From a virus: a DNA stretch of 48,940 bases. A model generated the notes under the pieces. It did no database searches and had not been told where the DNA came from. It saw nothing but the letters and a program-made list of their open reading frames with translations. Where the stretch lies: IMG/VR virus record IMGVR_UViG_3300035670_000329, positions 1 to 48,940 of that record; one strand, given 5' to 3'. A program made the position numbers and the translations under genes. This document shows, piece after piece, positions 8,819-26,831 of the stretch; the stretch's first letter is position 1; every line of letters starts with the position of its first letter.

Positions 8819-11800
8819 TCAAGCAGGCATCAAACGATTCATATTGACTTCGGGCGGTTGTTCTGTGGTGCCGTGTCTGGCCCGCCGTATCCGATCCATC
8901 ATGGCGTAAAGTTTCTTAGACCCAGCGTTACTGGAGCCGTTACCTAGATCTGCAACAACATCGGCAGGGATCACAAACTCACCATCTGCAAGACGAGCCT
9001 CTTGAATCCCCTCAATGGTAGCAGGCACACTGTCACTCATGCCATCCCCGGCACCGTTAATTGTGCGTGGTGCGTTAGCTGGCCCCGTAGCACCTCCCGC
9101 AGCGAGTGCGCTTAACCCCATCATGCCGCCACCAGCAGCCGTTCTCACCCCACCGAGCGTTCTTGCAAATAATTCAGCACCAACGCGTTTCTTACGTTCT
9201 TCCTCAGCTTGTTGCGCTGCCACAGCCTGTGCGTATTTATCACCTTCAGACACCATACCCGCAGAACCAATTGCCATCGGTACGGCATATAGCGTGCTTA
9301 TAGGTTGATCTAATTTAGCTTGGGCAGTTTCTAAGCCAGAAGTAATTTTGTCGGTAAGGGAAGTTGGTTGTGAAGCTGCCCCAAAACGTTCGGTTGGGGA
9401 TACATAGCCTTGATACTGTACATCTGTTGTTGGCGTTGGCATATCCAACCGATAAGAGGTTCCAAGGGGATCTCCAGCAATTGCGGAACCCTCAATCATT
9501 GTTGCCTGCGGTAAACTACTAGAAGCAAATTGTTCATAAGACCCGATCTCCGAAGGAATCGGAGTGGGCGCTGCCCCTGCTGCAGCCTCTGCACCTGTTG
9601 GTGCGGCACCGCTAGTAAGACCTAAGTTTTGTGCGGCACTGCCAATACCATAAGACATCAAGCCTGACATTAAGCCGCGCTTAAAGTCAAAACCTTTCTC
9701 ACCACCAAGCCCACCAGCTACTCCAGAAATTAAAGCCTTAGCAGCTAGTCCGAGTCCTGGGATAAACGGCACAACAAATGGCGCAACTTTGGCGACGCCC
9801 TTTAACAACTTTCTCCAACTAAAGTATTCAGGCAAGCCTGTTGCAGGATTAATGGTCCCAGAACCGCCCATCGCCTTAAGCATTTGAGCTTCATCAGGAC
9901 TAATGTGGGCTAGCATCGTGTCACCGAAGCGACCTTTCTGTGCCATCTCTTGGGCATAGCCTTTCATGGCGATACTGCCTAACCCACGGCCTACATCACC
10001 GCCCTCGGCGTAGTAATAATTAAGGGGGCGAACATTACCTGTAGCTGCACCACCTACACGTATGTCAGGAAGATAAGATGCGTATTCACGACCTGTACGA
10101 CCTTGACGGATAAGCAAATCTTCGTAATCTCTGGGAGTCATACGGGAAGCAACTAATGCTTCTAGTCCACGTAACTCTGGATTGAAAAGAACGTTGCGCG
10201 GGTAGTCAAATATCTTTTGGGCACGAGCAGTTTCAACTGTAGCTGGGGTAAGTCCAAAGTCCTCAAAAGAAAACTTCTTCTCCCCTGCCATTTCAGTTTT
10301 ACCACCTTCGGCAAATGTAATAAAGCCACCTTGTTTAGCACTTGGCCCACCATCTCCGCCATCTCCGCCATCTCCACCATCTCCGCCATCTCCACCATCT
10401 CCACCACTGCTGCCACCATCGCCACCACCGCCACCAAGGTAATCTGCGGGCGGAATTATGGGAGGACTTACGGGAGGAATTATGGGAGGACTTACGGGAG
10501 GAATTATGGGTTGAGTTACGGATGATGATCCGGGATTAATACCAAACAACGCACTATTTTCAGCAAGTGTAGAAGCTGCACTTGAAGCTGGACTGGAAGG
10601 AGCACCGCCATAAGTTAAAGAAGGTGCCGGTAATGCTGCAATTCCTTTTGTAGGTTGATATGCTGCCGCAGCCCTATCTGCTGCAAGTTTGTTAGCCTCT
10701 GCTTGTTTCTGAGCAAAGAATTGCGTAGGAGTCAGCCCTATAGCGGACACAACATCTGTTTCTGGTATACCGTACCGCGACATTTGAAGAGCTGCAGCCG
10801 CAGGAGTTACATTTGGATCAGCAAAGAAATTTTTGATGTTTTGAAAGTACTGTGTTTCCCCAATACCGTCTTCGCCTCTTGCATAAGAAAGCGCAGCGGA
10901 TGGTTGTTCAACTAACGCACCCATACCACTAGGGCCAATACTACGAGTTGTTGTACGTAGATTAGGTTGCCCCACATACTGAGAAACAAGCGAGCCTAGT
11001 CCTTTAGCAGGAGCTAATTGTGTCGGTGCTTGGTACGGAGAACGAAACCCCGTGGGGGTTGGGCTTGTGGGCGCACCCTCTGGTAGACCTAACAGTTTAA
11101 AGTTAGCATCTGTAGCGTTATCAGGATCATTATATTTAATGATTGATTTAACTTGGTCGGGTGTATAAGTCTTTAATAAGTCTTTTACATAGCCTTGTTT
11201 AGTTGCAAGATCTGCACCACTGTTCCACTGCAAACCACCGATATTGTAAATTTTGCTAGCCGTAGGCGTATCAGCAGCGGTAGGTGTAGTTGTAGTCGTG
11301 GTTGTAGCGGTAGTTTGTGAGGGTAAGGTTAAACCAAGCAGTCCAAAGTTACTTTCAGTCAGTGCAGATTTGTCAGGGTCAAGACGACTAATTTCATTTC
11401 TAATTTGTTGAACACTAAACCCGTCATCCTTCATTCTCTGGACAATAGCTTTTTTTGAGTCTAAGTCCGCCGCTGTGTCCCAAGAATATTTAGGGTCTCC
11501 AAAAGGCGTTAGAGTTCTCGCAGCTTTATCTGCTGCGGCTTTTGCATCGGCAGCAGCTTTTGCGTCTGCTGCGGCTTTTGCATCGGCAGCAGCTTTGGCA
11601 TCGGCAGCAGCTTTTGCGTCTGCTGCGGCTTTTGCGTCTGCTGCGGCTTTACTGGTAGCAGCGTTACTACTTGTATAGTAATCAAGTGCTGCTTGATACC
11701 CACCATACGGATCAAAGGCATTTGAAGGCACACCGCCCGACATTGATTTTTCTATGAGGTTCGTAACAGTGTCGGCGTTTCTTTCTAAATTTGCAGCTTT

Positions 11801-12085
11801 ATCAGCATCTACCCTAGCAGTTATTTCATTAATATACGCATCACGTTCTTCAGCGGTATCAAAAGACTGAAATCCATAGCTATAAGGTTTGTACCCCAAA
11901 CCCTTCATGTAGTTCAAAGTTTCTGTATCAACAGACGCCCCGTAAGTAGCAAAATCTTCTGGGGTTATGCCGCGTTCGTTGTATACGTCAACTTTTTCTT
12001 GTGGCGTTAATTGACTCCAAGGCTTTTGAAAGCCTTCTTCGTAGTACTTAATTATTGAGTCTAGCTGTGATTTGGTATAAGCCAT
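8819..12085 (-). CDS. Large low-complexity virion protein, probably internal (1088 aa)
   Basis: An ordered N-terminus (about 1-140) is followed by a tandem (AAADAK)n helix of six to seven units (about 145-190). Two degenerate copies of a roughly 60-residue domain come next (LGLTLPSQ... and LGLPEGAP..., both preceded by D-P-D), then a Pro/Ile repeat (PPIIPPVS, three units), a (GGD)n glycine tract near 550-575, and FAEGGKT and YAEGGDV motifs. A hydrophobic Gly-rich stretch (about 750-800) precedes a conserved-looking C-terminus (EARLADGEFVIPADVVADLG). The ATG at 12085 has only a weak GAGAT ribosome site. The mix of linkers and a C-terminal cap recurs in large proteins of environmental podoviruses. 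I cannot assign a function beyond structural or ejection protein. Confidence 0.6.
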   Translation of the reverse strand: MAYTKSQLDSIIKYYEEGFQKPWSQLTPQEKVDVYNERGITPEDFATYGASVDTETLNYMKGLGYKPYSYGFQSFDTAEERDAYINEITARVDADKAANLERNADTVTNLIEKSMSGGVPSNAFDPYGGYQAALDYYTSSNAATSKAAADAKAAADAKAAADAKAAADAKAAADAKAAADAKAAADKAARTLTPFGDPKYSWDTAADLDSKKAIVQRMKDDGFSVQQIRNEISRLDPDKSALTESNFGLLGLTLPSQTTATTTTTTTPTAADTPTASKIYNIGGLQWNSGADLATKQGYVKDLLKTYTPDQVKSIIKYNDPDNATDANFKLLGLPEGAPTSPTPTGFRSPYQAPTQLAPAKGLGSLVSQYVGQPNLRTTTRSIGPSGMGALVEQPSAALSYARGEDGIGETQYFQNIKNFFADPNVTPAAAALQMSRYGIPETDVVSAIGLTPTQFFAQKQAEANKLAADRAAAAYQPTKGIAALPAPSLTYGGAPSSPASSAASTLAENSALFGINPGSSSVTQPIIPPVSPPIIPPVSPPIIPPADYLGGGGGDGGSSGGDGGDGGDGGDGGDGGDGGPSAKQGGFITFAEGGKTEMAGEKKFSFEDFGLTPATVETARAQKIFDYPRNVLFNPELRGLEALVASRMTPRDYEDLLIRQGRTGREYASYLPDIRVGGAATGNVRPLNYYYAEGGDVGRGLGSIAMKGYAQEMAQKGRFGDTMLAHISPDEAQMLKAMGGSGTINPATGLPEYFSWRKLLKGVAKVAPFVVPFIPGLGLAAKALISGVAGGLGGEKGFDFKRGLMSGLMSYGIGSAAQNLGLTSGAAPTGAEAAAGAAPTPIPSEIGSYEQFASSSLPQATMIEGSAIAGDPLGTSYRLDMPTPTTDVQYQGYVSPTERFGAASQPTSLTDKITSGLETAQAKLDQPISTLYAVPMAIGSAGMVSEGDKYAQAVAAQQAEEERKKRVGAELFARTLGGVRTAAGGGMMGLSALAAGGATGPANAPRTINGAGDGMSDSVPATIEGIQEARLADGEFVIPADVVADLGNGSSNAGSKKLYAMMDRIRRARHGTTEQPPEVNMNRLMPA
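10348..10510. repeat. 9-bp and 24-bp tandem repeats inside the 1088-aa gene
   Basis: Bases about 10348-10435 hold many copies of a 9-bp unit (CCACCATCT / CCGCCATCT) encoding the Gly-Gly-Asp tract. Bases about 10452-10510 hold about 2.5 copies of a 24-bp unit encoding PPIIPPVS. Near-identical DNA units suggest recent slippage and likely length variation between relatives. Confidence 0.8.
11519..11651. repeat. 18-bp tandem repeats encoding AAADAK
   Basis: An imperfect tandem array of an 18-bp unit encodes a predicted continuous Ala-rich charged helix. Two unit variants alternate (GCATCGGCAGCAGCTTTT and GCGTCTGCTGCGGCTTTT), which points to duplication of a two-unit block. Confidence 0.85.
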
Positions 12086-14795: not shown

Positions 14796-15263
14796 TCACC
14801 TCATCATCGCAGCTTCTGCCGCACGGCGGCGAGTAAGTCCGGGGAGAACACGGCCCGCAGCTTTATTCCACAATAAACATTGATCGGCTGCACCATCCCA
14901 ATCCCCCGCATCAACCCGCTTCTTGAACGTGGAAACCCGATAGTTCCCTAAGCCGCAATTGTATGCCCAGCTTGTCACGGCGGCAATCCGTCGAGGTAAA
15001 GCGGTTGCTAACTTGGGAGAAAACCTTAAAAGCCCACGCACGAAGTACTCAACGTGGTGGTCAAGCGCATCTTCACACTGCTCTATCGTCCAGATGGTTC
15101 CCGGCTGAATCTCTGGCCCTGTCGCACCCCAACCAATCGTCCAAGGATGCCCACGGGTTCCGGGATCGGGATAGGCAGTTACTCGTCCATCAGGCAAACG
15201 CTTTGCCAAACCCTCAAATGGTTTGATTAATACATCCTTGCAAAGCTGCTTAGCCTCTTTCAT
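14796..15263 (-). CDS. Endolysin, GH24 phage lysozyme (155 aa)
   Basis: A muramidase that cuts peptidoglycan between MurNAc and GlcNAc at the end of infection. The active-site signature is visible: Glu17 in KPFEGL, Asp33 in AYPDPGT and Thr42 in PWTIGWG. An insertion (AKRLPDGRVT) between Glu and Asp lengthens the usual E-8-D-5-T spacing. SWAYNCGLGNYRVSTF and GLTRRRAAE are further family landmarks. No signal peptide or SAR segment is obvious, so it should depend on a holin; two membrane proteins lie upstream. Its ATG overlaps the HNH gene's TGA (ATGA), so its translation is probably coupled to that gene. Confidence 0.93.
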   Translation of the reverse strand: MKEAKQLCKDVLIKPFEGLAKRLPDGRVTAYPDPGTRGHPWTIGWGATGPEIQPGTIWTIEQCEDALDHHVEYFVRGLLRFSPKLATALPRRIAAVTSWAYNCGLGNYRVSTFKKRVDAGDWDGAADQCLLWNKAAGRVLPGLTRRRAAEAAMMR

Positions 15264-15742
15264 GGTTTGTTATGTTTTTCTGACGCAAGCTGCTTGCGTT
15301 TTTGCCACCAGACTTTTATGGACTCGGATTGTTTTTTAACGGACTCTTCTGGCCGTTTTTTACCAAGCCAGTGCCTCGATGATCTTCCTTTTCTTACCTT
15401 GTCTTGCATATTGTCTGCATCAGTTCCAAGGAAGAGATGCTCTGGGTTGACGCATTTTCGGTTATCGCATTTATGAAGAACCAGTAATCCTAATGGTATT
15501 GAGCCGCTAGTAAGCTCCCATGACATGCGATGTGCATTTACAGGTGTCTTTGAATCAAGAGCGAATTGCCCATATCCAGTTTGTGTAAACACAGACCATT
15601 GCCAATCCCAGCATCCGTTTTCAACGCGACTTACTTTGGACCAAAACCGACAGGCGATTGAACACTGCTTCTCTCTGCCGCCGTTTTTACGTTCAAACAG
15701 TCTGCCGCAATGACTGCAATTTATTGGTATTTTCTTTGTCAT
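15260..15742 (-). CDS. Free-standing HNH endonuclease (160 aa)
   Basis: This has an N-terminal zinc-ribbon-like CSHCGRLFERK...CSIAC segment (residues 9-31), then a domain with W-rich core and the HNH_3-type signature LVLHKCDNRKCVNPEHLFLG (His90, Cys92, Asn94, Cys97, Asn99, His102). A Lys-rich tail could contact DNA. Such genes are usually homing nucleases that cut a related phage lacking the insertion. It lies inside the lysis cassette with 4-nt ATGA overlaps to both neighbours, so coupling is kept on both sides. By eye it is more A/T-rich than its neighbours, consistent with separate ancestry. Confidence 0.9.
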   Translation of the reverse strand: MTKKIPINCSHCGRLFERKNGGREKQCSIACRFWSKVSRVENGCWDWQWSVFTQTGYGQFALDSKTPVNAHRMSWELTSGSIPLGLLVLHKCDNRKCVNPEHLFLGTDADNMQDKVRKGRSSRHWLGKKRPEESVKKQSESIKVWWQKRKQLASEKHNKP

Positions 15743-16224
15743 GATTTCTGATATTTCTCCACGCTTCTGCCAATAAAATAAAATGACAGCACCATAGACA
15801 ACATCCCAAAATCGTCTTCATCCCATGTTTTAATCAGCACCTCGGCCCAATTTGCGTTGGTTTGAAACGCAATAAACAGAGCCGCTGCTTTAACCCCTGC
15901 ATACATAAAAAACAAAAACCACGTTACGCCAGGACGCACTGAAGCTGAAATAAACGACATAAACCAACCCGCTGCCTTAGCCGTTTCAGCTTGCTCTTTA
16001 AATGCCTCCTTAATCGTATCCATTTGCTGGATGCTGTAGTCAACATACTTCTCCTCCATCTTGAACTCGCCCCTCATCTTTTCGAGGTCGGTTTGGAGTT
16101 GAAACATGCTTAACTCGTGAGCGCGTTCGTTCTTCTTGTCAAGGAATTTAAGGACTTCAGGAGCAAGCCTGAAGAGACCACCGAAGATGGAACCAAGTAA
16201 ACCACCTGAGAGAAGGTCAAACAT
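15739..16224 (-). CDS. Holin-like membrane protein, 3TM type (161 aa)
   Basis: The start is taken at 16224 (MFDLLSGGLLGSIFGG), which has AAGGGG five bases upstream and overlaps the previous gene's stop by 8 nt. Upstream in-frame codons lack a ribosome site. There are three hydrophobic stretches: GLLGSIFGGLF near the N-terminus, VTWFLFFMYAGVKAAALFIAF near 105-125 and MLSMVLSFYFIGRSVEK at the C-terminus. A charged helix (about 30-90) sits between the first two. The SASVRPGVTW and FIGRSVEK landmarks resemble the GTA/phage 3TM holin family. It should form inner-membrane lesions that release the lysozyme encoded downstream. Confidence 0.75.
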   Translation of the reverse strand: MFDLLSGGLLGSIFGGLFRLAPEVLKFLDKKNERAHELSMFQLQTDLEKMRGEFKMEEKYVDYSIQQMDTIKEAFKEQAETAKAAGWFMSFISASVRPGVTWFLFFMYAGVKAAALFIAFQTNANWAEVLIKTWDEDDFGMLSMVLSFYFIGRSVEKYQKS

Positions 16225-16645
16225 GTTCGCCCCTTGCGGTAATCTGATCGGCACCTTTCTTGACCGTGACTTTGCTTCCTTCAACATCAACTTGCATGGG
16301 TTGCTCGGCACGGTCTAGTTTGTCAAGCCGATGAATAAGATCCTTGATGACTTCAAATTCAGGCTTTTCTTGCTTAGCAGCAGTGCCAGCAATGCCATTT
16401 AGCATTTGAATGAGCGCAGTAAGTGAAGCACCAAGAAGACCCATGACCGCAGCGATCTTCTCGCCTTCTAAGAACAGAGATGCGCCGACACCCACGAGCA
16501 CGATAAGGAAGATATAGAGAAGCCCATCTTCGCCAATCGCTTTACCAGCAACTTCTTTAGCCGAATCCTGAGCTTTGAGTTCCTCTAGCTTGATCTTAGC
16601 TTGCGCTTTGAGAACCGCTAGTTCGTGGGTTTTATCGTCCATCAT
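16217..16645 (-). CDS. Two-TM membrane protein of lysis cassette (142 aa)
   Basis: A charged N-terminal helix (about 1-40) precedes two hydrophobic helices, LLYIFLIVLVGVGASLFL and IAAVMGLLGASLTALIQML. A polar C-terminal tail follows. Position directly before the 3TM protein and lysozyme suggests a second holin, an antiholin or a lysis regulator. The ATGATG start overlaps the preceding stop (ATGA at 16645-16642), and either ATG may be used. I do not recognise a named family. Confidence 0.6.
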   Translation of the reverse strand: MMDDKTHELAVLKAQAKIKLEELKAQDSAKEVAGKAIGEDGLLYIFLIVLVGVGASLFLEGEKIAAVMGLLGASLTALIQMLNGIAGTAAKQEKPEFEVIKDLIHRLDKLDRAEQPMQVDVEGSKVTVKKGADQITARGEHV

Positions 16646-17274
16646 GTCCCCAGAGCATTCAAAAAGATCAGTTGCGTTAACCGACTATTGGTCACGTCGG
16701 TCCCAAAATGCTCACCCATTGAGTGCCACATCCACGGGCGAAACAAGACAAGACGGTTGGTGCGAATCGGCGCATCAAACACCGGCTCCCACTGATCTTT
16801 TTGTTTTCCTTCCGTCTCAAAAAACTTCAGCATGTCATCGTGCGTTGTTACACCAATGGCTTGCGCTTCCAGGTGGTCCTTGGGCGCTACTTCCATACCT
16901 GACTTGCGGTGGCGGTACATCACCGTACCTGCTTGTTTGCCAGCATAGTGCTGAGGCAGACTTAAGTAAATAACCCCCGCCCAGACTTGCTGAGGCTTAG
17001 GATCAAAGTGAATGACCTGCGTCGAGGTATCGTGCTCGCAAGTAAAGCGAAAGTGCCCGCAGCTTGATGTCGGCGTGGGAAAGACTATATCGCCTGTAAT
17101 CTGCGAGAGCCGGTTGTTAAGGTCAAGCGACCAAAAGGCTTGCAAACTGTTGCGGCCAGGGTAGTTGCGCGAACCCGGCTCTTCATACTCAGCATCGAGC
17201 GCGATCTTTCTAACCGCATCAAAGTCCGGGTAGAAGTCATCAACAACAATGATGCGCTTATCAAAGTTCACCAT
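16642..17274 (-). CDS. 2OG-Fe(II) oxygenase-like protein, DUF6445-like (210 aa)
   Basis: A double-stranded beta-helix pattern carries a plausible iron triad: His89-Phe-Asp91 (QVIHFDPKP), a distal His184 (PWMWHSMGEHFG) and a basic Arg198 (SRLTQL) placed as for 2-oxoglutarate binding. GTVMYRHRKSG resembles the same family. If active it would hydroxylate a protein side chain or small molecule. It is the last gene of a glycan-modification run and overlaps the GT32 gene by 7 nt. The iron triad is read from spacing, so activity is an inference. Confidence 0.65.
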   Translation of the reverse strand: MVNFDKRIIVVDDFYPDFDAVRKIALDAEYEEPGSRNYPGRNSLQAFWSLDLNNRLSQITGDIVFPTPTSSCGHFRFTCEHDTSTQVIHFDPKPQQVWAGVIYLSLPQHYAGKQAGTVMYRHRKSGMEVAPKDHLEAQAIGVTTHDDMLKFFETEGKQKDQWEPVFDAPIRTNRLVLFRPWMWHSMGEHFGTDVTNSRLTQLIFLNALGT

Positions 17275-17975
17275 TCACCTGTCCAGTGACGCAGGCCGTT
17301 TTCTGCATAAAACGTTCGTTTCAACCCTTCCCAATCTTGAGGGGCAGTGCCTTCTCGGTACAAAAAAGTTTGATGCGGTGGATCTTCTCGATAGGTGCGG
17401 ATAACACCTGAGCTATCAATAGCTCGCCTAATTAACGTAAATTCTTCTTTCCCCGGATTAGTGTTAATAATTCTATTAAACAGGGAAAATGTTATGGCGT
17501 GCATGTACGTCTGAGCACCCAAGAAATAAATACTATCATGCCCATCCTTTCGTCTTGCTATATAGGCTTGGATCGCTGTCTTGTAGATAGGATTCTCAGG
17601 CTCACTGAGCATGATGTCATGTGAGAAATCGTACTCACGACAAGTGGGCAACACCTGCTTAGCGCCCTCTGGAATAACCTCATCAAGCTTCACATTGCAA
17701 TAGCGATCAATGTCTACGTAGAGTCCGCCCTCGTGGTGCATCTTATAAAGACGCCAAATATCTGTTTTGGCAACAATGCTTGCTTCGGCTACTAAAGGGT
17801 AGTGCTCACCCATATGCGCTTGCAGGTAAGCGTCAATATCCGCATCGTCAGAGATTTGCATGTCCCATTCGGGGTTCATCGCAGCAAGGCGAGCAACGCC
17901 CTCCACGATTAAAGGAGAGCGATTCCTTAAGACATGCTTATCGTTCCAGGCGATGTGGATGATCTTGGGGATCAT
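17268..17975 (-). CDS. Glycosyltransferase, GT32 / Och1-like (235 aa)
   Basis: It starts IPKIIHIAWND, typical of sugar transferases containing the Gly_transf_sug DXD module. The signature AKTDIWRLYKMHHEGGLYVD ends in Asp88-Ile-Asp90, which should hold the metal and nucleotide-sugar. Conserved-looking HDIMLSEPENP follows. It should transfer a hexose from a nucleotide sugar to a polysaccharide or glycan acceptor. The ATG overlaps the upstream kinase gene's stop (ATGA). The substrate is unknown; the neighbours suggest virion or surface glycan. Confidence 0.8.
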   Translation of the reverse strand: MIPKIIHIAWNDKHVLRNRSPLIVEGVARLAAMNPEWDMQISDDADIDAYLQAHMGEHYPLVAEASIVAKTDIWRLYKMHHEGGLYVDIDRYCNVKLDEVIPEGAKQVLPTCREYDFSHDIMLSEPENPIYKTAIQAYIARRKDGHDSIYFLGAQTYMHAITFSLFNRIINTNPGKEEFTLIRRAIDSSGVIRTYREDPPHQTFLYREGTAPQDWEGLKRTFYAENGLRHWTGEW

Positions 17976-18814
17976 TTCAGGCCCATGGTCTGGCGAATCT
18001 TAGTAGCCGAGATTGAATGAATCGCATCATCAAAGGTCTCTTGCTCGATCTTGTAGCCCACGTCGCGGCCATAGGTGATGTTCACGATGTTGGGCACTAA
18101 CTGGATCTCATACTGACCCTGATAAAGCGGATCAAGATCGCGCCTGATGAAGTCCTTGACCTGCTCGGCAGCAAACGGATTGGAGCCATTCCAGCCTTGG
18201 CAGTCACGGATCTGGATCACTACCTGACCTGTCTTGGCAATCGCACGCTCAAACAATGCACGGTGGCCAGGATGCCAAGGTTGCCAGCGGCCAAGCATTT
18301 GCACGGTTTCTTTGCGCCAATCAAACCGTGGCCGGCGGCGGTCATTCAGAATGTGGTCGGCTATAAAGTCAGACCATTTATCAGCGTCTTTTTCAGTGAC
18401 ACGAAAGTCGTAAACATCAGGTGGCACAAAAGCTTTGTTGGTGTCTTCATACCGGCCAGCATCAATGGTATCCATCCAGATAACCCAGTCGGCCTTGAAG
18501 TTGTGCCGCATCTCAGGCAGCGGTGCCACAAAGTCACAAATAACATAGTCAGCATTTGATGAGAGTGCAAACTCAGCCATCCGTATTGATTGCCGAATCC
18601 GGCCTTCACGGCTGAAATCCCAGTCGTTATATTTTTTTCGTACCTCATCAGCGTTGAACCACTTGACCTTGGGATGCCAATAACTAGGTGCCACTTCACA
18701 CTGCGCAAGCTTTTCCACGGGAATGTCTGTACTGGCCTCTAAGCGCTTTTTCAATGCTTCAGCCATAAAAGTTTTGCCTGCTCCAGGCAGGCCCATGATA
18801 AGGATTTTTTTCAT
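17972..18814 (-). CDS. APS-kinase-like P-loop / nucleotidylyltransferase fusion (280 aa)
   Basis: The N-terminal half has Walker A GLPGAGKT (8-15), then FNADEVRKKYNDWDFSREGR and CDFVAPLPEMR. These match in order the DGDNVR...GFS..DR and FISP..R motifs of adenylylsulfate kinases. The C-terminal half (about 170-280) is a HIGH-type nucleotidylyltransferase with GRWQPWHPGH (175-184) and SISATKIR (267-274), as in NMN adenylyl- or cytidylyltransferases. It could make PAPS for the sulfotransferase two genes upstream, or activate another phosphorylated metabolite. The fusion resembles a PAPS synthetase in layout, but the second domain lacks clear ATP-sulfurylase landmarks beyond the HxGH. The ATG overlaps the GT25 gene's stop (ATGA). 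Confidence 0.75.
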   Translation of the reverse strand: MKKILIMGLPGAGKTFMAEALKKRLEASTDIPVEKLAQCEVAPSYWHPKVKWFNADEVRKKYNDWDFSREGRIRQSIRMAEFALSSNADYVICDFVAPLPEMRHNFKADWVIWMDTIDAGRYEDTNKAFVPPDVYDFRVTEKDADKWSDFIADHILNDRRRPRFDWRKETVQMLGRWQPWHPGHRALFERAIAKTGQVVIQIRDCQGWNGSNPFAAEQVKDFIRRDLDPLYQGQYEIQLVPNIVNITYGRDVGYKIEQETFDDAIHSISATKIRQTMGLK

Positions 18815-19506
18815 GCGGCTAGTTGGTCATTGCGATCTGTTTTTCGGCCATGCTTGGGGCGTCCAAGTATGGTTGTCTCAGTCTTGTCCGGCGCATCCGT
18901 AGCATAAACGCCCATCTGATGAATCGGGAAGATGTCAGCGCGAAGCATAATGTCTAATGGGACCGATATGCCATATTTGATAGCGTGGGCTACCATATTT
19001 TTGGCAACCGCCGGATCAATTGCATACGCATGAGCGCGGCAAATAAAGTGATAGTTTGGACCTTCGCTTGCATGCGGCGGTGTTGGCATTACAGCCCATC
19101 CTTTTTGCGTTTGCTCGTGACAGCCTAAATAGCAAATGGAGTTATAGACCGAATGCTGCAAGTAAGGCTGAAGCATGACCGCATCATGCTCAAGGATCAC
19201 AATTGGTTTGTCTTGCTCCACGCATTTAGCCCACAGACTTATGTGCGATAGTGCACAAGCCACTTCGCCGCGAGTTAGATAGTGATCCGTAACCTTAATC
19301 ATGTTCATCACTTGACTGTGATGCGCCGGTGGCTTGATGGGATCTTCTATGCCGTTATAGGCGTCCCAAAAAGCAAAAGGCATCCCAATGGATGCGCATG
19401 ATTTGGCGGCTTCGTCAGCCTTGCGCTCAGAGACTTCGTGACCTTGAATGCGGATGATATAAGCCCGATCCACGGCCATGTCATAGCTGAAGAACAGCGA
19501 CTTCAT
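18811..19506 (-). CDS. Glycosyltransferase family 25 protein (231 aa)
   Basis: The start is set at 19506 (MKSLFFSYDM), where ATG overlaps the upstream TGA. The AYIIRIQGHEVSERKADE opening, the SHISLWAKCVEQDKPIVILE stretch and the EHDAVM motif are typical of LPS-type GT25 transferases (galactosyl or glucosyl). The C-terminal tail is basic (GRPKHGRKTDRND). It should add sugar to LPS-like or protein-linked glycan. It sits between a tail-fibre chaperone and the kinase fusion, which favours a role in virion or surface glycan decoration over bulk host metabolism. Confidence 0.75.
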   Translation of the reverse strand: MKSLFFSYDMAVDRAYIIRIQGHEVSERKADEAAKSCASIGMPFAFWDAYNGIEDPIKPPAHHSQVMNMIKVTDHYLTRGEVACALSHISLWAKCVEQDKPIVILEHDAVMLQPYLQHSVYNSICYLGCHEQTQKGWAVMPTPPHASEGPNYHFICRAHAYAIDPAVAKNMVAHAIKYGISVPLDIMLRADIFPIHQMGVYATDAPDKTETTILGRPKHGRKTDRNDQLAA

Positions 19507-19958
19507 GCTGGCTTCACGGGCCAATCTATGCCATTAAAGTTTGTGTTTTCAGGCAAATCACGCAACGCTTGGCGATAAGTCGTCCACTCTACGGGCACGG
19601 CCTGTCCTGCTTCTAGGTGTTTAACAATAATCCAATCGGTTTCCGCTAAACGAAAGTTACGTTCCATGCGCCACAAACGCCATTTTTCCGCAAGCTCGGC
19701 GTCAAGTTCTTCTTGTGTTTTAGAGCGCTTAATCAGCGTCCAAACAACGTGATCGTCTTTGATCTCGTAGCTTTCTGACTCCCATACTTCGGTGGCGTAA
19801 TCCATCGAATCAGGCTTAACTGATACCACGGGATACCAGCCTGACCGCATCAAAGCATCTTTATCTGCGCCCCAGGCTTGCACGCTAGGAGGCAAAGGAT
19901 TTGCCCTTTGCACAACTTTGCCGTCCTCAACTTTAACCCACAGATCTAATCCTGCCAT
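19503..19958 (-). CDS. Tail fibre assembly chaperone-like protein (151 aa)
   Basis: The C-terminal half (RLWRMERNFRLAETDWIIVK then YRQALRDLPENT) carries the L-x-x-[ST]D-W...YR-x-x-L-R-D-L-P signature of phage tail-assembly chaperones encoded beside tail fibres. The N-terminal half is beta-rich. It probably folds or trimerises the RCC1-tipped fibre, from which it is separated by the sulfotransferase-glycosyltransferase gene. Its start overlaps that gene's end by 26 nt. Confidence 0.8.
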   Translation of the reverse strand: MAGLDLWVKVEDGKVVQRANPLPPSVQAWGADKDALMRSGWYPVVSVKPDSMDYATEVWESESYEIKDDHVVWTLIKRSKTQEELDAELAEKWRLWRMERNFRLAETDWIIVKHLEAGQAVPVEWTTYRQALRDLPENTNFNGIDWPVKPA

Positions 19959-21708
19959 GATGCACCTCGTTCAAATAGTCGCCAAGTGCAACACGCACCT
20001 GATCAAAAACTTCCGTCCAGCTTTCGTATTTAACTTGCCTAAACAATCGCACCGAATCGTACCAAGGAGCACGATTTCCCGGAAGCGCCCAAATGTAATA
20101 GGGCAGGATTGGCACCACAACCCATGTTGGCACACCCATCGCAGCAGACAAATGCGCCACCGATGTACAAGAAGAAATTACTAAATCACAACTTGCAACC
20201 GCTTGTTGCGTATCAAGCCACGAGTCAAGCTTTGATTCAGCAATCCATTCTGGGCGGTGCTGTGACCCTTCATCGCGCTGTAAAGACACAAACTCAACGT
20301 CATGACCTTTGACAGCATTAAAGAGCAACTCAGGTGGGAAATACTTTCGGTGATCATGCTCAAAGTTCGGGTTGCCCTGCCAGCGCAAGCCGATGCGAAA
20401 CTTTGACTTTGGAACTTGCGGGCAAGGAATGTAAGCTCTGCCCCACACATCTTTGTACTCAATGCCTAGCGGAATAGGAGCAGACATTCCTGGCACCCAA
20501 GCGTGATGAAAGATACCCGGAGCAGCTTCATGCACCACTACTGCACGCACATTTGGGATGGTGGCGAACAGCGTTACAAGCTCAGGCGAGCAAGCCACAA
20601 TCACTTGGCACTTACGCGCTGTAATGTCTTGCACGAAGCGCATTTGATGGATCTGATCGCCTAAGCCACCTTCCAAGTAAAGCAGCACAATCTGCCCTGG
20701 TTGACCATCCCAAATTTGCGTAGGCACTTGCGGTTTGGCATTACCGAATACTTGCTCAATACGTCCCCTGGCGAGCAACTGCATACCCTCTTGCAGTTTG
20801 CCCTGCATGAGCAAATACCAACCCCGGTTGTAAGCTGCGCGGTGGTTTTGCGGCTCAGTACGCTCAAGCTGTTGAGCAATTTCCCAAGCCTTTTGGAAGT
20901 CCCCCCTGCGACCTGCTTCTAGCTGCAGATCCAGTGGTTGTTTTGGCATTGACTCTTCGGTTTCACCAAGCCAAAAGCGCGGCTGATTAAATTCATTATA
21001 ACGATGCCCTAAAACTTCTTGTGCAGTTTGTTTGTGCTGGCGCTCAAGCTTAGGCTTGATGTCATGTAAACCAGGAATGCCCCACACCTCATCGTCTTTT
21101 TCAGCAACGATGGAGCCTTCGATCTTGTCAAGATTGTAAGCAAAAGGCTCAAGCTCTAAGAAATCGTGGATGCGTCTCAGTTGCGTTTCTGGATCAGCAA
21201 GTAAATTTTCGTATTCAATCAAGCAAAAAGACAACGGATCTTCCAGCATGCCTGCATGTAAGGTCACATAGCCTGTCTTGACTACATTGATCAGGTGCGT
21301 TTCTGATAAGAACTTTTGCGTATCTTCAGGCTTAACCACTCGCACGAAAGAAGCGATGCAATCAGGCACGTTTCTGACCGTAGCGATGATTTTGGGTCGC
21401 TGGCCAAGTACCTTCGTCATCGTTTTCATAATTGGCGGCGCAGGCCATCCGCGGTTTTTATCAATGATGACGGGTTTTTGAATGATCTCGTTTTTGGCCT
21501 TCATCAAGCCACGAAGCATGCGAACCATGTCATCATCGTTGCGGCCTTGAACGTGAATCCATTTGTCACGCTCCCACTTTTCCGCCACTGCTCCCATAAT
21601 GCCAATCAACCCTGATGTTGGCGTGACATACACCAAAGGGTTTTGATTAAGGATCGCGGCAAGAACCGTTGACCCCGAACGAGGAAGGCCGGATAAAAAG
21701 TACATCAT
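19933..21708 (-). CDS. Sulfotransferase - TPR - glycosyltransferase fusion (591 aa)
   Basis: The start is set at 21708, where ATG overlaps the fibre gene's TGA (the next codon is also ATG). The N-terminal domain has the PAPS-binding loop YFLSGLPRSGSTVLAAILNQ (about 3-22) and IATVRNVPDCIASFVRV, as in sulfotransferases. A short TPR-like helical stretch (about 265-335; AAYNRGWYLLMQGKLQEGMQ) leads to a C-terminal GT9/GT41-like nucleotide-sugar domain with CDLVISSCTSVAHLSAAMG. One polypeptide may thus glycosylate and sulfate the same acceptor. Direct adjacency to the fibre gene suggests the fibre or a virion glycan as target. Domain calls are by motif. Confidence 0.8.
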   Translation of the reverse strand: MMYFLSGLPRSGSTVLAAILNQNPLVYVTPTSGLIGIMGAVAEKWERDKWIHVQGRNDDDMVRMLRGLMKAKNEIIQKPVIIDKNRGWPAPPIMKTMTKVLGQRPKIIATVRNVPDCIASFVRVVKPEDTQKFLSETHLINVVKTGYVTLHAGMLEDPLSFCLIEYENLLADPETQLRRIHDFLELEPFAYNLDKIEGSIVAEKDDEVWGIPGLHDIKPKLERQHKQTAQEVLGHRYNEFNQPRFWLGETEESMPKQPLDLQLEAGRRGDFQKAWEIAQQLERTEPQNHRAAYNRGWYLLMQGKLQEGMQLLARGRIEQVFGNAKPQVPTQIWDGQPGQIVLLYLEGGLGDQIHQMRFVQDITARKCQVIVACSPELVTLFATIPNVRAVVVHEAAPGIFHHAWVPGMSAPIPLGIEYKDVWGRAYIPCPQVPKSKFRIGLRWQGNPNFEHDHRKYFPPELLFNAVKGHDVEFVSLQRDEGSQHRPEWIAESKLDSWLDTQQAVASCDLVISSCTSVAHLSAAMGVPTWVVVPILPYYIWALPGNRAPWYDSVRLFRQVKYESWTEVFDQVRVALGDYLNEVHHGRIRSVG

Positions 21709-24473
21709 GCGGGATCTTTTGCCACTGATGTTGTGGCTCCCGCAGAAGAACCACCACCAAAGGTAATCGAACCCCAACTCGTCAGTCCTGCAACTTGCGT
21801 AGGAGAAGACCTACCAGTACCTCCAAGCGGAGTAAGGACAGCTTGACCCGTTCCCCAAAACCATAGCGATCCATCAGTTTTAATGCCTGCGCTTGCTGCA
21901 CCCCCGGCATTTATTGAAAGCCAAGTTGTTAATGCGCCAACTTGTGCTGGAGACGACCTATTCGTTCTGTCATTTAGCCCAAGTTGAGCACTGCTATTAT
22001 AGCCCCAACCCCATAATGTGCCATCAGTTTTAATTGCAAAACTAAAATCGTTTACTCCTTGTCTATCAAATACTTTTGACCAATTTGTTAATGCACCAAC
22101 TTGTACTGGAGACGATCTATCTATCCTATTATTATGTCCAAGTTGACCGTAGAAATTAAGACCCCAACTCCATAATGTGCCATCAGTTTTAATTGCAATA
22201 GTTGAAGTAGATGTAGCTACTTTTGACCAAGTTGTTAATGCACCAACTTGTACTGGAGACGATTTAGATACCGTATCATTATGTCCAAGGTTACCATGGG
22301 GATTATTGCCCCAAGACCATAATGTGCCATCAGTTTTAACAGCGGCGCAATAGTAGCCATAAGCAGGTGAAGATATTGACGCCCAATTTGTTAATGCGCC
22401 AACTTGCACTGGAGAGCTTGTATTCACAGTGCTATTCGTGCCAAGAACTCCAAAACTGCCCTTACCCCAAGTCCATAATGTGCCATCAGTTTTAATAGCT
22501 GAACACGCAAACTTATTGGGGATTGCTGTAGACCAATTTGTTAATGCACCAACTTGTACTGGAGACGATTTAGATACCGTATCATTATGTCCAAGTCGAC
22601 CATAGTTGTTGCCGCCCCAAGTCCATAATGTGCCATCAGTTTTAATTGCAACACTAAAAGACGGATTCATTGTTACAACGGCCCAGTTTGTTAATGCGCC
22701 AACTTGCTGGACAGAGAACCCATATGTTGTATTATTTTGACCCAACTGGCCAGCATTATTGAATCCCCATGTATACAAACTATTACCAACGCCGCCTGTA
22801 ATTGTCGCTTCTACCCAGCCACGCCATTTTGTTCCGCCATCTGTTGTAAGCAACGCTATAACCGTAACTCCATTTGCACCAGTTGCAAAGCTTGGAGAAA
22901 TTTGCGTGCCTTGATTTGTCGTTTCACTATATTGACCACTCCAATACACAGAATTTGGCCAAGTGATGGTGTAAGCAGTTCCATCCGAAGCATTTTTTAC
23001 AATAATCTGAATTAAGATCGGCGTGCCACTTGCAGGCACGTTGGTAAAGGACAGCGTCGTAATATTTGCGGCCATCGTCAGATCAATGACGTTGCCACTG
23101 TTTAGGTCAATTGTTGTGGTGGCGGATGACGTAACCGCTTGTCGGGTATTGTTGGTAAGAGCGCCACCTGCCGGTGTCGAAGAAGTCCAAGTCGTACCGT
23201 TTGAAGTAAGCACATTACCGCTTGTGCCTGGAGCCACCACTTGAAATGCAGAGGTGCCGTTACCCAAAAGCACGTTATTAGCGGTGAATGTCCCAGCTCC
23301 TGTACCGCCCTGAGCGACGTTAAGATTGCCGCTAGCATTTAAAACTGCCAAACCACTTGCAGCATTTGTATTGTTTCCAATAGCGGTGACTACGCCTGTG
23401 CCTGTAGTGGTTGTCGCTGGAGCAACCCCTGCACCGCCACCAATCACAAGCGCGTTAGCTGCCAAAGCACTAGAAGAAGCAATCGTATTTGAGGCGGAGA
23501 AGTAAGGAACCCCACCAGAAGTGCCTGATGTAATACCCGTACCGCCGTTACCTACAGGAAGCGTACCTGTAACTTGAGAGGTCAAACTGACGCCGGAAAG
23601 CGTACCGCCAAGGGTTATGGTGCCTGTGGTAGTAATTGTCCCGCCGGTAAGCGTAATACCGTTGACAGTTCCTGTGGTAGCTACCGATGTGACGGTGCCT
23701 GCGCCTGTACCCGCACCAATTGCTGTACGAAAATCAGCAGCAGAAAGTGCAGACACCGTATTGTTTGCATTGATTCGGATAAAAGTGATTGCGGATGGGT
23801 TTGTTAAGGTGAATAAGCTATCACCAACCGTCGTTGAACCAAGATTAGTTCTCGCACCCGCAGCCGTAGAAGATCCTGTACCACCGTCAGCCACTGCAAG
23901 ATCAGTAATGCCTGTGATCGAACCGCCTGTGATACTTACGTTATTAGCTGCTTGTGTGGAGATAGTTCCTAGACCAAGATTAGTTCTTGCTGTAGCAGCG
24001 TCCGAAGCTCCTGTACCACCGTCAGCCACTGCAAGGTCTGTACCCAAAGACAATGTATCTGCGTAGTTAAAAAAGCTTCCTACATCTGTACCGTTGTTGT
24101 ATAAAAAAGCGCGTTTACCTGTCGGTACAGCAACACCCGTCAGTCCAGAAACCTTAACCGTCACGGTTTGTCCCGTGGCGTTAATAATCATGTAGGGCTT
24201 TTGAATCGCAGGTACTTCAAGTGTACCAGCACTCCCCAACGCTTGGGTCAAGTTAAGTACTAACGCTCGTGCATTTTGAGCAGCGTTGGTATCTGTAAGC
24301 GTGAGGCTTAGCGTCAGTGGGGAACCTGTAAATCCGCTACTGATCGTCGCCATACCAACCAAGGCTTGTTCAATCGCTGTGCCTAAGTTGGTATTAGTCG
24401 TTGTACCCCAGGTGCCTGATTGGTCACCCGTGCCGATGAGTTCAAATTTAAGGTTTGAGTATGTACTTGCCAT
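21705..24473 (-). CDS. Tail fibre with C-terminal RCC1-type beta-propeller (922 aa)
   Basis: The N-terminus (TYSNLKFELIGTGDQSGTWG) is a virion-attachment module seen in phage fibres. Residues about 140-460 hold fibre repeats of the type LAVADGGTGASDAATARTNL. Residues about 580-910 contain seven repeats with the core TDGTLWTWG-x-N-x-x-G-x-LG followed by SSPVQVGALTNW. This is the RCC1 (BLIP-II-like) blade signature, and seven copies fit a closed seven-bladed propeller. Such a propeller at the fibre tip would be the receptor-binding head. The gene follows the 332-aa repeat protein and is followed directly by modification and chaperone genes. Confidence 0.9.
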   Translation of the reverse strand: MASTYSNLKFELIGTGDQSGTWGTTTNTNLGTAIEQALVGMATISSGFTGSPLTLSLTLTDTNAAQNARALVLNLTQALGSAGTLEVPAIQKPYMIINATGQTVTVKVSGLTGVAVPTGKRAFLYNNGTDVGSFFNYADTLSLGTDLAVADGGTGASDAATARTNLGLGTISTQAANNVSITGGSITGITDLAVADGGTGSSTAAGARTNLGSTTVGDSLFTLTNPSAITFIRINANNTVSALSAADFRTAIGAGTGAGTVTSVATTGTVNGITLTGGTITTTGTITLGGTLSGVSLTSQVTGTLPVGNGGTGITSGTSGGVPYFSASNTIASSSALAANALVIGGGAGVAPATTTTGTGVVTAIGNNTNAASGLAVLNASGNLNVAQGGTGAGTFTANNVLLGNGTSAFQVVAPGTSGNVLTSNGTTWTSSTPAGGALTNNTRQAVTSSATTTIDLNSGNVIDLTMAANITTLSFTNVPASGTPILIQIIVKNASDGTAYTITWPNSVYWSGQYSETTNQGTQISPSFATGANGVTVIALLTTDGGTKWRGWVEATITGGVGNSLYTWGFNNAGQLGQNNTTYGFSVQQVGALTNWAVVTMNPSFSVAIKTDGTLWTWGGNNYGRLGHNDTVSKSSPVQVGALTNWSTAIPNKFACSAIKTDGTLWTWGKGSFGVLGTNSTVNTSSPVQVGALTNWASISSPAYGYYCAAVKTDGTLWSWGNNPHGNLGHNDTVSKSSPVQVGALTTWSKVATSTSTIAIKTDGTLWSWGLNFYGQLGHNNRIDRSSPVQVGALTNWSKVFDRQGVNDFSFAIKTDGTLWGWGYNSSAQLGLNDRTNRSSPAQVGALTTWLSINAGGAASAGIKTDGSLWFWGTGQAVLTPLGGTGRSSPTQVAGLTSWGSITFGGGSSAGATTSVAKDPA
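21740..22740. repeat. RCC1-encoding DNA repeats
   Basis: Segments such as CATAATGTGCCATCAGTTTT and GCACCAACTTGTACTGGAGA recur at about 150-bp spacing, one per propeller blade. Two blades also share a longer block (GTATCATTATGTCCAAG). Identity at DNA level suggests recent internal duplication or recombination between blades. Confidence 0.85.
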
Positions 24474-25958: not shown

Positions 25959-26831
25959 TCAATACTCCTTAATATCGGCGTCTGACGCCCCAGTGACTAA
26001 AATTTGATGGAGTAGCCCACCGTAAACCTGAAGCTCCATAACGTCACCCATGAACTTAATCAGGTCAATGAACTCTCTAGCTTGCGAGACCATCCAAGGA
26101 TGACAGTAAAAGATCTTTCCACCGACTTTTACAGGAACTACTGGAAGGCCATCGTTTTCTGCTTGCGCGTAAGCGTGATGCTTACCGTCTTCCAAACATG
26201 AATCACATCCAAAAATATGAAACCGCTTGAACCCTAGCATTCTAAACATAGGAATGGCACGAAGCAATGCTGTAGACCCTCCCGGCACCGCATACCAATT
26301 CTTATATTCAGTCGCCAAAATCTCTTGAATTTCTTCTGCACTTGTGTGCCAAATATAAGTCTGCTCTTTAGGCATGCCTTCAAACACAGACGGATGACAC
26401 TGAGAAGAAAGAAAATACTTACAGGTCGGTACAAACGTAGTCAAAAAGCGTTTGTTGAACTCACGACCATCCACCATAAAAAAAGCAGAAGGCATAAGGC
26501 CGTGGTCAATACAGTATTGGTACGCATTGTTGAGCGTGATTAGTTTGACACCTTGCTGCCGAAGTTGTTTGATAGTGCCGATATGTTCGGCAAGTGAGGG
26601 TCCGCCTCCAACAATCATAACCTCTACGTCGTTCGTAGGATGTGGGGCTATCTGCTGAAAGCCTAGCCGGATATTGTGCGCTACGTTAGCTTTCAATACT
26701 TCAAGGTCTATATTTAATGACCCCTCCATCTCTACTTCTTCAGCGGCTACCCAAGTCTCGTGATCTTTTGGAGGAATAGGCGCGATTACAACTTTTGGAG
26801 GCTCAGAAAAAAAGCCGACAGGAGTGCTCAT
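25959..26831 (-). CDS. MptE-like / DUF115-type protein (290 aa)
   Basis: A Rossmann-like core carries VMIVGGGPSLAEHIGTIKQL (GGGPS at 75-79), KLITLNNAYQYCIDHGLMPS, AFFMVDGRE and GGSTALLRAIPMFRMLGFKR, then HIFGCDSC. These landmarks match the MptE-like / Maf-type family, whose members are pterin diphosphokinases or nonulosonic-acid transferases for flagellin glycosylation. In a phage late operon a glycan-transfer role fits the downstream glycosylation cassette, but an activity cannot be fixed. It is joined to the upstream gene by TAATG overlap. Confidence 0.7.
   Translation of the reverse strand: MSTPVGFFSEPPKVVIAPIPPKDHETWVAAEEVEMEGSLNIDLEVLKANVAHNIRLGFQQIAPHPTNDVEVMIVGGGPSLAEHIGTIKQLRQQGVKLITLNNAYQYCIDHGLMPSAFFMVDGREFNKRFLTTFVPTCKYFLSSQCHPSVFEGMPKEQTYIWHTSAEEIQEILATEYKNWYAVPGGSTALLRAIPMFRMLGFKRFHIFGCDSCLEDGKHHAYAQAENDGLPVVPVKVGGKIFYCHPWMVSQAREFIDLIKFMGDVMELQVYGGLLHQILVTGASDADIKEY

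Follow-up and report, generated by a model that had tools for sequence, protein, structure and literature searches.

An RCC1-type tail fibre tip and its neighbouring sulfotransferase-TPR-glycosyltransferase fusion as the core of a candidate fibre-tailoring module in environmental phages

The window analysed here is the whole of a 48,940-base IMG/VR viral record (IMGVR_UViG_3300035670_000329), on whose full length all positions are numbered, and our subject is a minus-strand run of predicted sulfotransferase, glycosyltransferase (GT) and kinase genes next to its tail fibre gene (the cassette). The named-phage terminases closest to that of the window are those of 023Pt_psg01, the Pelagibacter phages HTVC027P and HTVC023P, and phage DSL-LC04 (51-56% identity). 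Along the minus strand the fibre gene is followed by a fusion of a sulfotransferase, tetratricopeptide repeats (TPR) and a GT-like part, a chaperone, a GT25-family gene, a fusion resembling adenosine 5'-phosphosulfate (APS) kinase, a GT32-type gene and a gene resembling DUF6445 and 2-oxoglutarate (2OG) oxygenases; a small protein with a hydrophobic stretch, a holin, an HNH endonuclease and an endolysin come next on the same strand. All genes from fibre to endolysin form an overlapping chain (overlaps of 4, 26, 22, 4, 4, 7, 4, 8, 4 and 4 bp). The original prediction, made from the letters alone, had described such an enzyme run at 16642-21708, with a fibre chaperone inside it, between tail fibre and lysis genes. 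All the genes that it named lie there on the minus strand, with an RCC1-type fibre gene directly upstream and the holin and endolysin genes directly downstream; the chaperone (Phage_tail_APC PF16778, 58.6 bits versus 26.6; here and below, Pfam scores are in bits against the gathering score of the family) and the GT25, GT32 and oxygenase-like genes (PF01755, PF04488 and PF20043) are recognised by Pfam. The features are as follows, with E-values in brackets:

21705..24473, minus: tail fibre, 922 aa, the presumed substrate (Pfam RCC1 1.4e-48, WD40_RLD 3e-59)
21705..22787, minus: RCC1 propeller tip of the fibre, used as search anchor
19933..21708, minus: sulfotransferase-TPR-GT-B-like fusion, 591 aa (PF13469 4.7e-15, PF00685 3.1e-10)
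19503..19958, minus: tail-fibre assembly chaperone, Phage_tail_APC (PF16778 5.6e-16; phrog_4912, tail fiber assembly)
18811..19524, minus: GT25-family glycosyltransferase, 237 aa from TTG or 231 aa from ATG 19506 (PF01755 7e-19)
17972..18814, minus: APS-kinase-like P-loop kinase plus NadM-like nucleotidyltransferase, 280 aa (PF01583 3.5e-06; phrog_10255 4.2e-47)
17268..17975, minus: GT32-type glycosyltransferase, DXD motif in GGLYVDIDRYC (PF04488 2.4e-06)
16642..17274, minus: DUF6445/2OG-Fe(II) oxygenase-like protein, 210 aa (PF20043 1e-14)

Gene order suggests that the run is expressed late; a promoter and terminator scan gave no excess over shuffled sequences (16 versus 24.5; 19 versus 17.2).

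The C-terminus of the fibre, about residues 563-922, is an RCC1-type beta-propeller (RCC1, 163.6 bits versus 21.7), and its N-terminal shaft carries fibre-like repeats and matches PHROG tail fiber families. The fusion behind it probably starts at ATG 21708, where the mechanical open reading frame had used TTG 21777. Its sulfotransferase domain scores above the Pfam cut-offs (PF13469, 56.9 bits versus 27; PF00685, 40.3 versus 22). The loop GLPRSGST is conserved and R112 and S120 are invariant in an alignment of 10 relatives, which we take to be the 5'-phosphosulfate loop and the 3'-phosphate Arg/Ser motif, respectively; relatives of the fusion also match the NCBIfam NoeE-type sulfotransferase. 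TPR_16 falls under its cut-off in the window protein (23.5 bits versus 32.7, E 7.7e-05), and relatives match several TPR families. For the GT-B-like part the signal comes through relatives, one of which weakly matches heptosyltransferase I. The scores of cellular relatives against Glyco_transf_9 (17.7-22.2 bits) straddle its 22-bit cut-off, and a local 40-column alignment to two GT9 proteins was obtained with hhalign (E 6.7e-06). A PDB search with the TPR-GT profile found matches solely through the TPR repeats. When bacterial genomes were scanned for distant relatives, the first TPR-GT alignment gave no conserved stretch, and the second led mostly to phage-like contigs in metagenome-assembled genomes (MAGs), many with a neighbouring RCC1 gene. 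The second scan also led to one cellular alphaproteobacterial MAG (L435:6003-10451) with three tandem TPR-GT genes beside aminotransferase, transketolase and glyceraldehyde-3-phosphate dehydrogenase genes, and no flagellin was seen near this locus.

The link between fibre tip and enzymes was assessed with viral loci that were fetched with the tip sequence alone, blind to the enzymes (78 new loci), and with 239 control loci fetched with the terminase, the stabilisation protein or the MptE-like protein; the proteins so obtained served to build the search profiles in successive rounds. A TPR-GT and/or a sulfotransferase is encoded in 67 of the 78 RCC1-fetched loci, and in 65 of them one of the two directly adjoins an RCC1 gene. 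Among the controls, 238 of 239 hold no RCC1, and none of these 238 has a TPR-GT or a sulfotransferase; the single control locus with RCC1 (1/239) carries both. Some large RCC1-repeat fibres (1,400-2,100 aa) are directly followed by a TPR-GT to which no sulfotransferase is fused. The pairing is also seen in cultured or single-cell phages: in the cultured cyanophage BUCT-ZZ01, which infects S. elongatus PCC 7942, an RCC1-type gene is directly followed by a TPR-GT homologue, which matches the GT half of the fusion only, and in S-SRM01 and AG-345-E08 the RCC1 and TPR-GT genes lie within a few kb of one another. Judged from these gene neighbourhoods, the linkage of the enzymes to the fibre is well supported.

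Relatives of the fusion are encoded in 18 viral loci. On every contig of sufficient length the RCC1 fibre is followed by the fusion, the chaperone, usually GT25, and the APS-kinase-like gene, then by GT32 and often the oxygenase, and after these usually by holin and lysin. In L083, window positions 16654-23171 align at 78% DNA identity as one block that begins within the fibre gene and runs to where the oxygenase gene ends, whereas the holin and lysin are only 41% and 30% identical. The cassette proteins of L085/L087 and L095 are mostly 78-98% identical to those of the window (GT32, 61-64%), whereas for their structural proteins, the stabilisation protein among them, alignments are short and reach just 32-36%; the backbone of L085/L087 is 27-49% identical. 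Conversely, L103 and L104 encode a stabilisation protein 93% identical to that of the window yet have neither the RCC1 tip nor the cassette. The L083 block, the cassette identities in L085/L087 and L095, and the joint absence of both parts from L103 and L104 therefore indicate that the unit of exchange is the fibre tip together with the enzymes.

The cassette slot of L103 (2072-4642) and L104 (3183-5527) is occupied by two to four genes of the 2OG-Fe(II) oxygenase family, to which L103 adds a tail chaperone and a weak Anp1-like GT. This slot content resembles a second kind of fibre-side modification set.

We put at roughly 55% the probability that the cassette is a module for tailoring the fibre tip, with the RCC1 tip and the sulfotransferase-TPR-GT fusion as its core, acting in the manner of Caulobacter FlmG and swapped between phages as a block. 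In the conjectured order of steps, the TPR part would bind the fibre in the cytoplasm before assembly, the GT-B-like part would add a sugar to it, and the fused sulfotransferase, using 3'-phosphoadenosine 5'-phosphosulfate (PAPS), would sulfate either that sugar or the protein itself. The glycan would be lengthened or diversified by GT25 and GT32. A prior hydroxylation of a residue may be the task of the 2OG-oxygenase-like protein, and folding of the fibre would fall to the chaperone encoded between the enzymes; the APS-kinase-like fusion probably supplies the sulfotransferase or another activated donor. The outcome, and with it any biological benefit, would be a decorated receptor-contact surface exchanged among phages as one block. 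The data thus suggest that such phages modify the host-contacting part of their particles chemically. The original prediction had favoured modification of the virion over takeover of host metabolism, for example by a sulfated glycan on the fibre. Its tie to the fibre stands, as seen in the block transfer, the adjacency in 65 of 78 loci and the position of the kinase before T4-like neck and tail genes; the sulfated glycan itself we put forward as a hypothesis.

The nearest experimental precedent is FlmG, a 596-aa soluble cytosolic flagellin O-glycosyltransferase whose TPR N-terminus binds flagellin and whose GT-B C-terminus glycosylates it (PMC7591256). Likened by domain description, the window protein (591 aa) similarly would unite a TPR region and a GT-B-like domain, and by analogy its client would be a surface filament, the evidence here being gene linkage, seen in 65 of 78 loci as direct adjacency to an RCC1 fibre gene; unlike FlmG, it has a sulfotransferase fused in front, and its presumed client is a phage RCC1 fibre. 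PAPS-dependent sulfotransferases of PF13469 and PF00685, including NoeE, share the conserved PAPS-binding loop and 3'-phosphate motif; they differ in that here the domain is fused to a TPR-GT and lies beside phage fibres. Two elements of the proposal are already known. Phage virion glycosylation has been described for mycobacteriophages, whose capsid and tail-tube subunits carry glycans (Freeman et al. 2023, as cited in PMC12619734); compared with what that citation conveys, the presumed target here is the fibre tip, with a sulfotransferase, in a module exchanged as a block. Exchangeable fibre-chaperone modules are known from the Alteromonas phages A5 and V22, in which fibre and cognate chaperone are common to distant phages (PMC10579305); unlike those modules, the unit exchanged here also holds modification enzymes. 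No description of a co-transferred module of fibre tip, TPR-GT and sulfotransferase was found in the literature searched, which covers few subscription journals.

Several points weigh against the tailoring of the fibre tip. The enzymes are absent from 11 of the 78 RCC1 loci, about six of them near contig ends and five not. RCC1 proteins of less than 30% identity in cultured phages are absent among the records that match the fusion, so that the link is to this RCC1 subgroup. The control loci do not match the RCC1 loci in phage lineage or in the length of flanking sequence, and the loci are related to one another and thus not phylogenetically independent. The kinase is also found away from fibres. 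Pfam recognises no GT family in the C-terminal half of the fusion or in any of 28 relatives, and the GT-B assignment is at motif level, resting on roughly 40 residues; the structure model of the fusion was poor (predicted local distance difference test, pLDDT, 58) and was therefore not used for a fold search. The claimed sulfotransferase-glycosyltransferase fusion accordingly holds by Pfam for its sulfotransferase half, and its other half is a putative GT by way of relatives. Finally, a target on the host surface that is matched to the receptor would likewise travel with the fibre tip.

A rival reading exists for the role of the kinase fusion. Its first domain matches APS_kinase (PF01583, 27.5 bits versus 21.1) and has a P-loop, and a Foldseek search with a model of moderate quality (pLDDT 71) returned APS kinases on all of ranks 1-17. 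DGDN is a motif of APS kinases; it is replaced by NADE or NADD in all 28 kinase homologues (NADE in the window protein). The second domain carries the NadM-type motif GRxQPxHxGH (GRWQPWHxGH) and matches NMN adenylyltransferases. The kinase domain is thus like APS kinase and PAPS synthetase in fold and P-loop, and unlike them in its altered DGDN and in a second domain that is NadM-like rather than an ATP sulfurylase. A reading as PAPS synthetase was rejected, the QxRN motif of ATP sulfurylases being absent and a NadM-like motif standing in its place; ATP sulfurylase PF01747 was found in none of eight related viral records. Of the APS-kinase-like fusion claimed originally, the kinase domain is therefore confirmed and the partner domain is a different one.

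The fusion might accordingly have no part in sulfation and serve nucleotide or NAD salvage instead, having been recruited to a late accessory slot; this is a serious possibility that we place somewhat short of even odds. Besides the NadM-type motif and the change to NADE, its wider distribution speaks for this: homologues with no glycan context lie, at 36-40% identity, beside NADAR, MazG, topoisomerase or DNA-ligase genes and, at 75-77% identity in L200, beside clamp loader and dCMP deaminase genes. Relatives lying away from fibres, which the original prediction had named as counter-evidence, were thus found for the kinase and not for the sulfotransferase-TPR-GT. Set against a salvage role are the fold matches and the company that the kinase keeps. 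It is strongly conserved (73-100% identity in the best 80 loci), and a sulfotransferase is present in 52 of 77 kinase-fetched loci, rising to 40 of 48 where at least 5 kb of upstream sequence exists, compared with 0/80, 0/80 and 1/79 in the controls (1/239 in all). In a T4-like relative the kinase has tail fibre genes on one side and genes for neck, sheath stabiliser, terminase and sheath on the other; across 30 T4-like neck/tail loci the kinase occurs in 29, a sulfotransferase in 22 and RCC1 in 12, figures in which position rather than count is informative, most of these loci having been kinase-fetched. A salvage role of this one enzyme is compatible with fibre-tip tailoring by the remaining genes.

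Further observations concern the surroundings of kinase homologues. In the Casjensviridae loci L341 and L343 the homologue lies beside NADAR, MazG-like pyrophosphatase and topoisomerase genes, which suggests a nucleotide- or NAD-related role there. The gene directly upstream of the kinase in a T4-like locus (L199:7243-8004) has two PHROG matches, one to an HldE-like heptose kinase/adenylyltransferase and one to cysteine dioxygenase, and cysteine dioxygenase is also annotated near the homologue in Casjensviridae phages. A further kinase locus (L198:6486-7955) has no recognised sulfotransferase and has a carbamoyltransferase, a possible tailoring enzyme, directly upstream.

For the enzymes as a group, the main rival to a fibre substrate is a host-surface target matched to the receptor: the enzymes would act late on lipopolysaccharide or another host glycan, for example against binding to debris or for superinfection exclusion. 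PF01755 is described as a lipopolysaccharide biosynthesis family, and lipopolysaccharide synthesis commonly involves enzymes of the GT25 and GT32 families. We nevertheless consider such a target unlikely. The run contains no flippase, polyprenol transferase or polymerase gene, and it directly precedes the lysis genes, which is late for remodelling a surface; moreover, the TPR-GT is usually the immediate neighbour of RCC1, and in some loci an RCC1 fibre is followed by a TPR-GT with a chaperone nearby and no sulfotransferase.

Less probable still is that the genes merely gather beside fibres through frequent recombination in a hypervariable late slot, with no common function. Different gene sets do occupy the same slot in relatives, and fibre modules are exchanged between distant phages (PMC10579305); however, chance gathering would not readily account for a specific pairing of RCC1 with TPR-GT or sulfotransferase across podovirus-like and T4-like loci that is seen in 0 of 238 controls without RCC1. 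A redirection of host sulfur metabolism by kinase and sulfotransferase, in line with the part of the literature in which APS kinase (cysC) genes of viral contigs are commonly listed as auxiliary metabolic genes under sulfur metabolism, is disfavoured and very improbable, given the consistent coupling to fibre tips and sulfotransferases a run with no sulfate-assimilation partner, and the absence of PF01747 from the eight related records.

Should fibre-tip tailoring hold, the fibre sequence by itself would not reveal the receptor-contact chemistry of many environmental phages, and phages would count protein sulfation or sulfated glycans among their traits. Genes that are called cysC or APS kinase in metagenomic viral sequences may in many cases represent fibre-linked sulfotransferase modules rather than host sulfur metabolism. 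The RCC1 tip and the TPR-GT make a defined, testable enzyme-substrate pair with a cultured system at hand. More tentatively, RCC1 tips might be a widespread, so far undescribed class of receptor-binding structures that is sulfo-glycosylated by the co-transferred sulfotransferase-TPR-GT in podovirus-like and T4-like phages alike, which would make covalent carbohydrate and sulfate chemistry a part of adsorption; this broader claim we regard as possible and on the doubtful side.

Among the accessory enzymes, GT25 and the GT32-type protein exceed their Pfam cut-offs (PF01755, 68.9 bits versus 24; PF04488, 28.6 versus 23). The GT25 protein also matches part of phrog_61, a family annotated 2OG-Fe(II) oxygenase, which hints that GT and oxygenase activities are fused elsewhere. 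The oxygenase-like protein matches DUF6445 (PF20043, 55.5 bits versus 24) and phrog_1644, annotated minor coat protein (4e-22), whereas 2OG-FeII_Oxy_5 (PF13759) stays below its cut-off (18.9 bits versus 27, E 0.002); judged from its sequence, HFD at 89-91 and a distal histidine (184 or 189) are candidate HxD...H ligands. In HTVC023P, HTVC027P, 023Pt_psg01 and DSL-LC04, too, genes annotated as 2OG oxygenases are interspersed with tail and structural genes.

The remaining features flank the cassette:

25959..26831, minus: MptE-like gene of the structural backbone (PF01973, 69.9 bits versus 34.6)
16217..16645, minus: small protein with a hydrophobic stretch, 142 aa, at the cassette/lysis boundary (no PHROG match)
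15739..16224, minus: holin-like gene, start ATG 16224 or GTG 16311 (phrog_6637 and phrog_3427, holin)
14796..15263, minus: endolysin (phrog_7, endolysin, 3.5e-37)

The MptE-like gene lies just upstream of the fibre region, as had been predicted. It was rejected as a member of the cassette, staying with the structural genes p227, p143, p153 and p332 in relatives that have no cassette; a sulfotransferase, TPR-GT or APS-kinase-like gene occurs in just one of the 79 loci fetched with the MptE-like protein. The small boundary protein is conserved at 92-97% next to the holin genes of relatives, whether or not these carry the cassette. An HNH endonuclease gene (15260-15742) is wedged between holin and endolysin with a 4-bp overlap with each, and in several relatives, for example L103 and L104, holin and endolysin are adjacent with no HNH gene between them. 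Elsewhere in the window, a large structural protein (8819-12085) contains an alanine/lysine-rich repeat tract and a Gly-Asp-rich tract.

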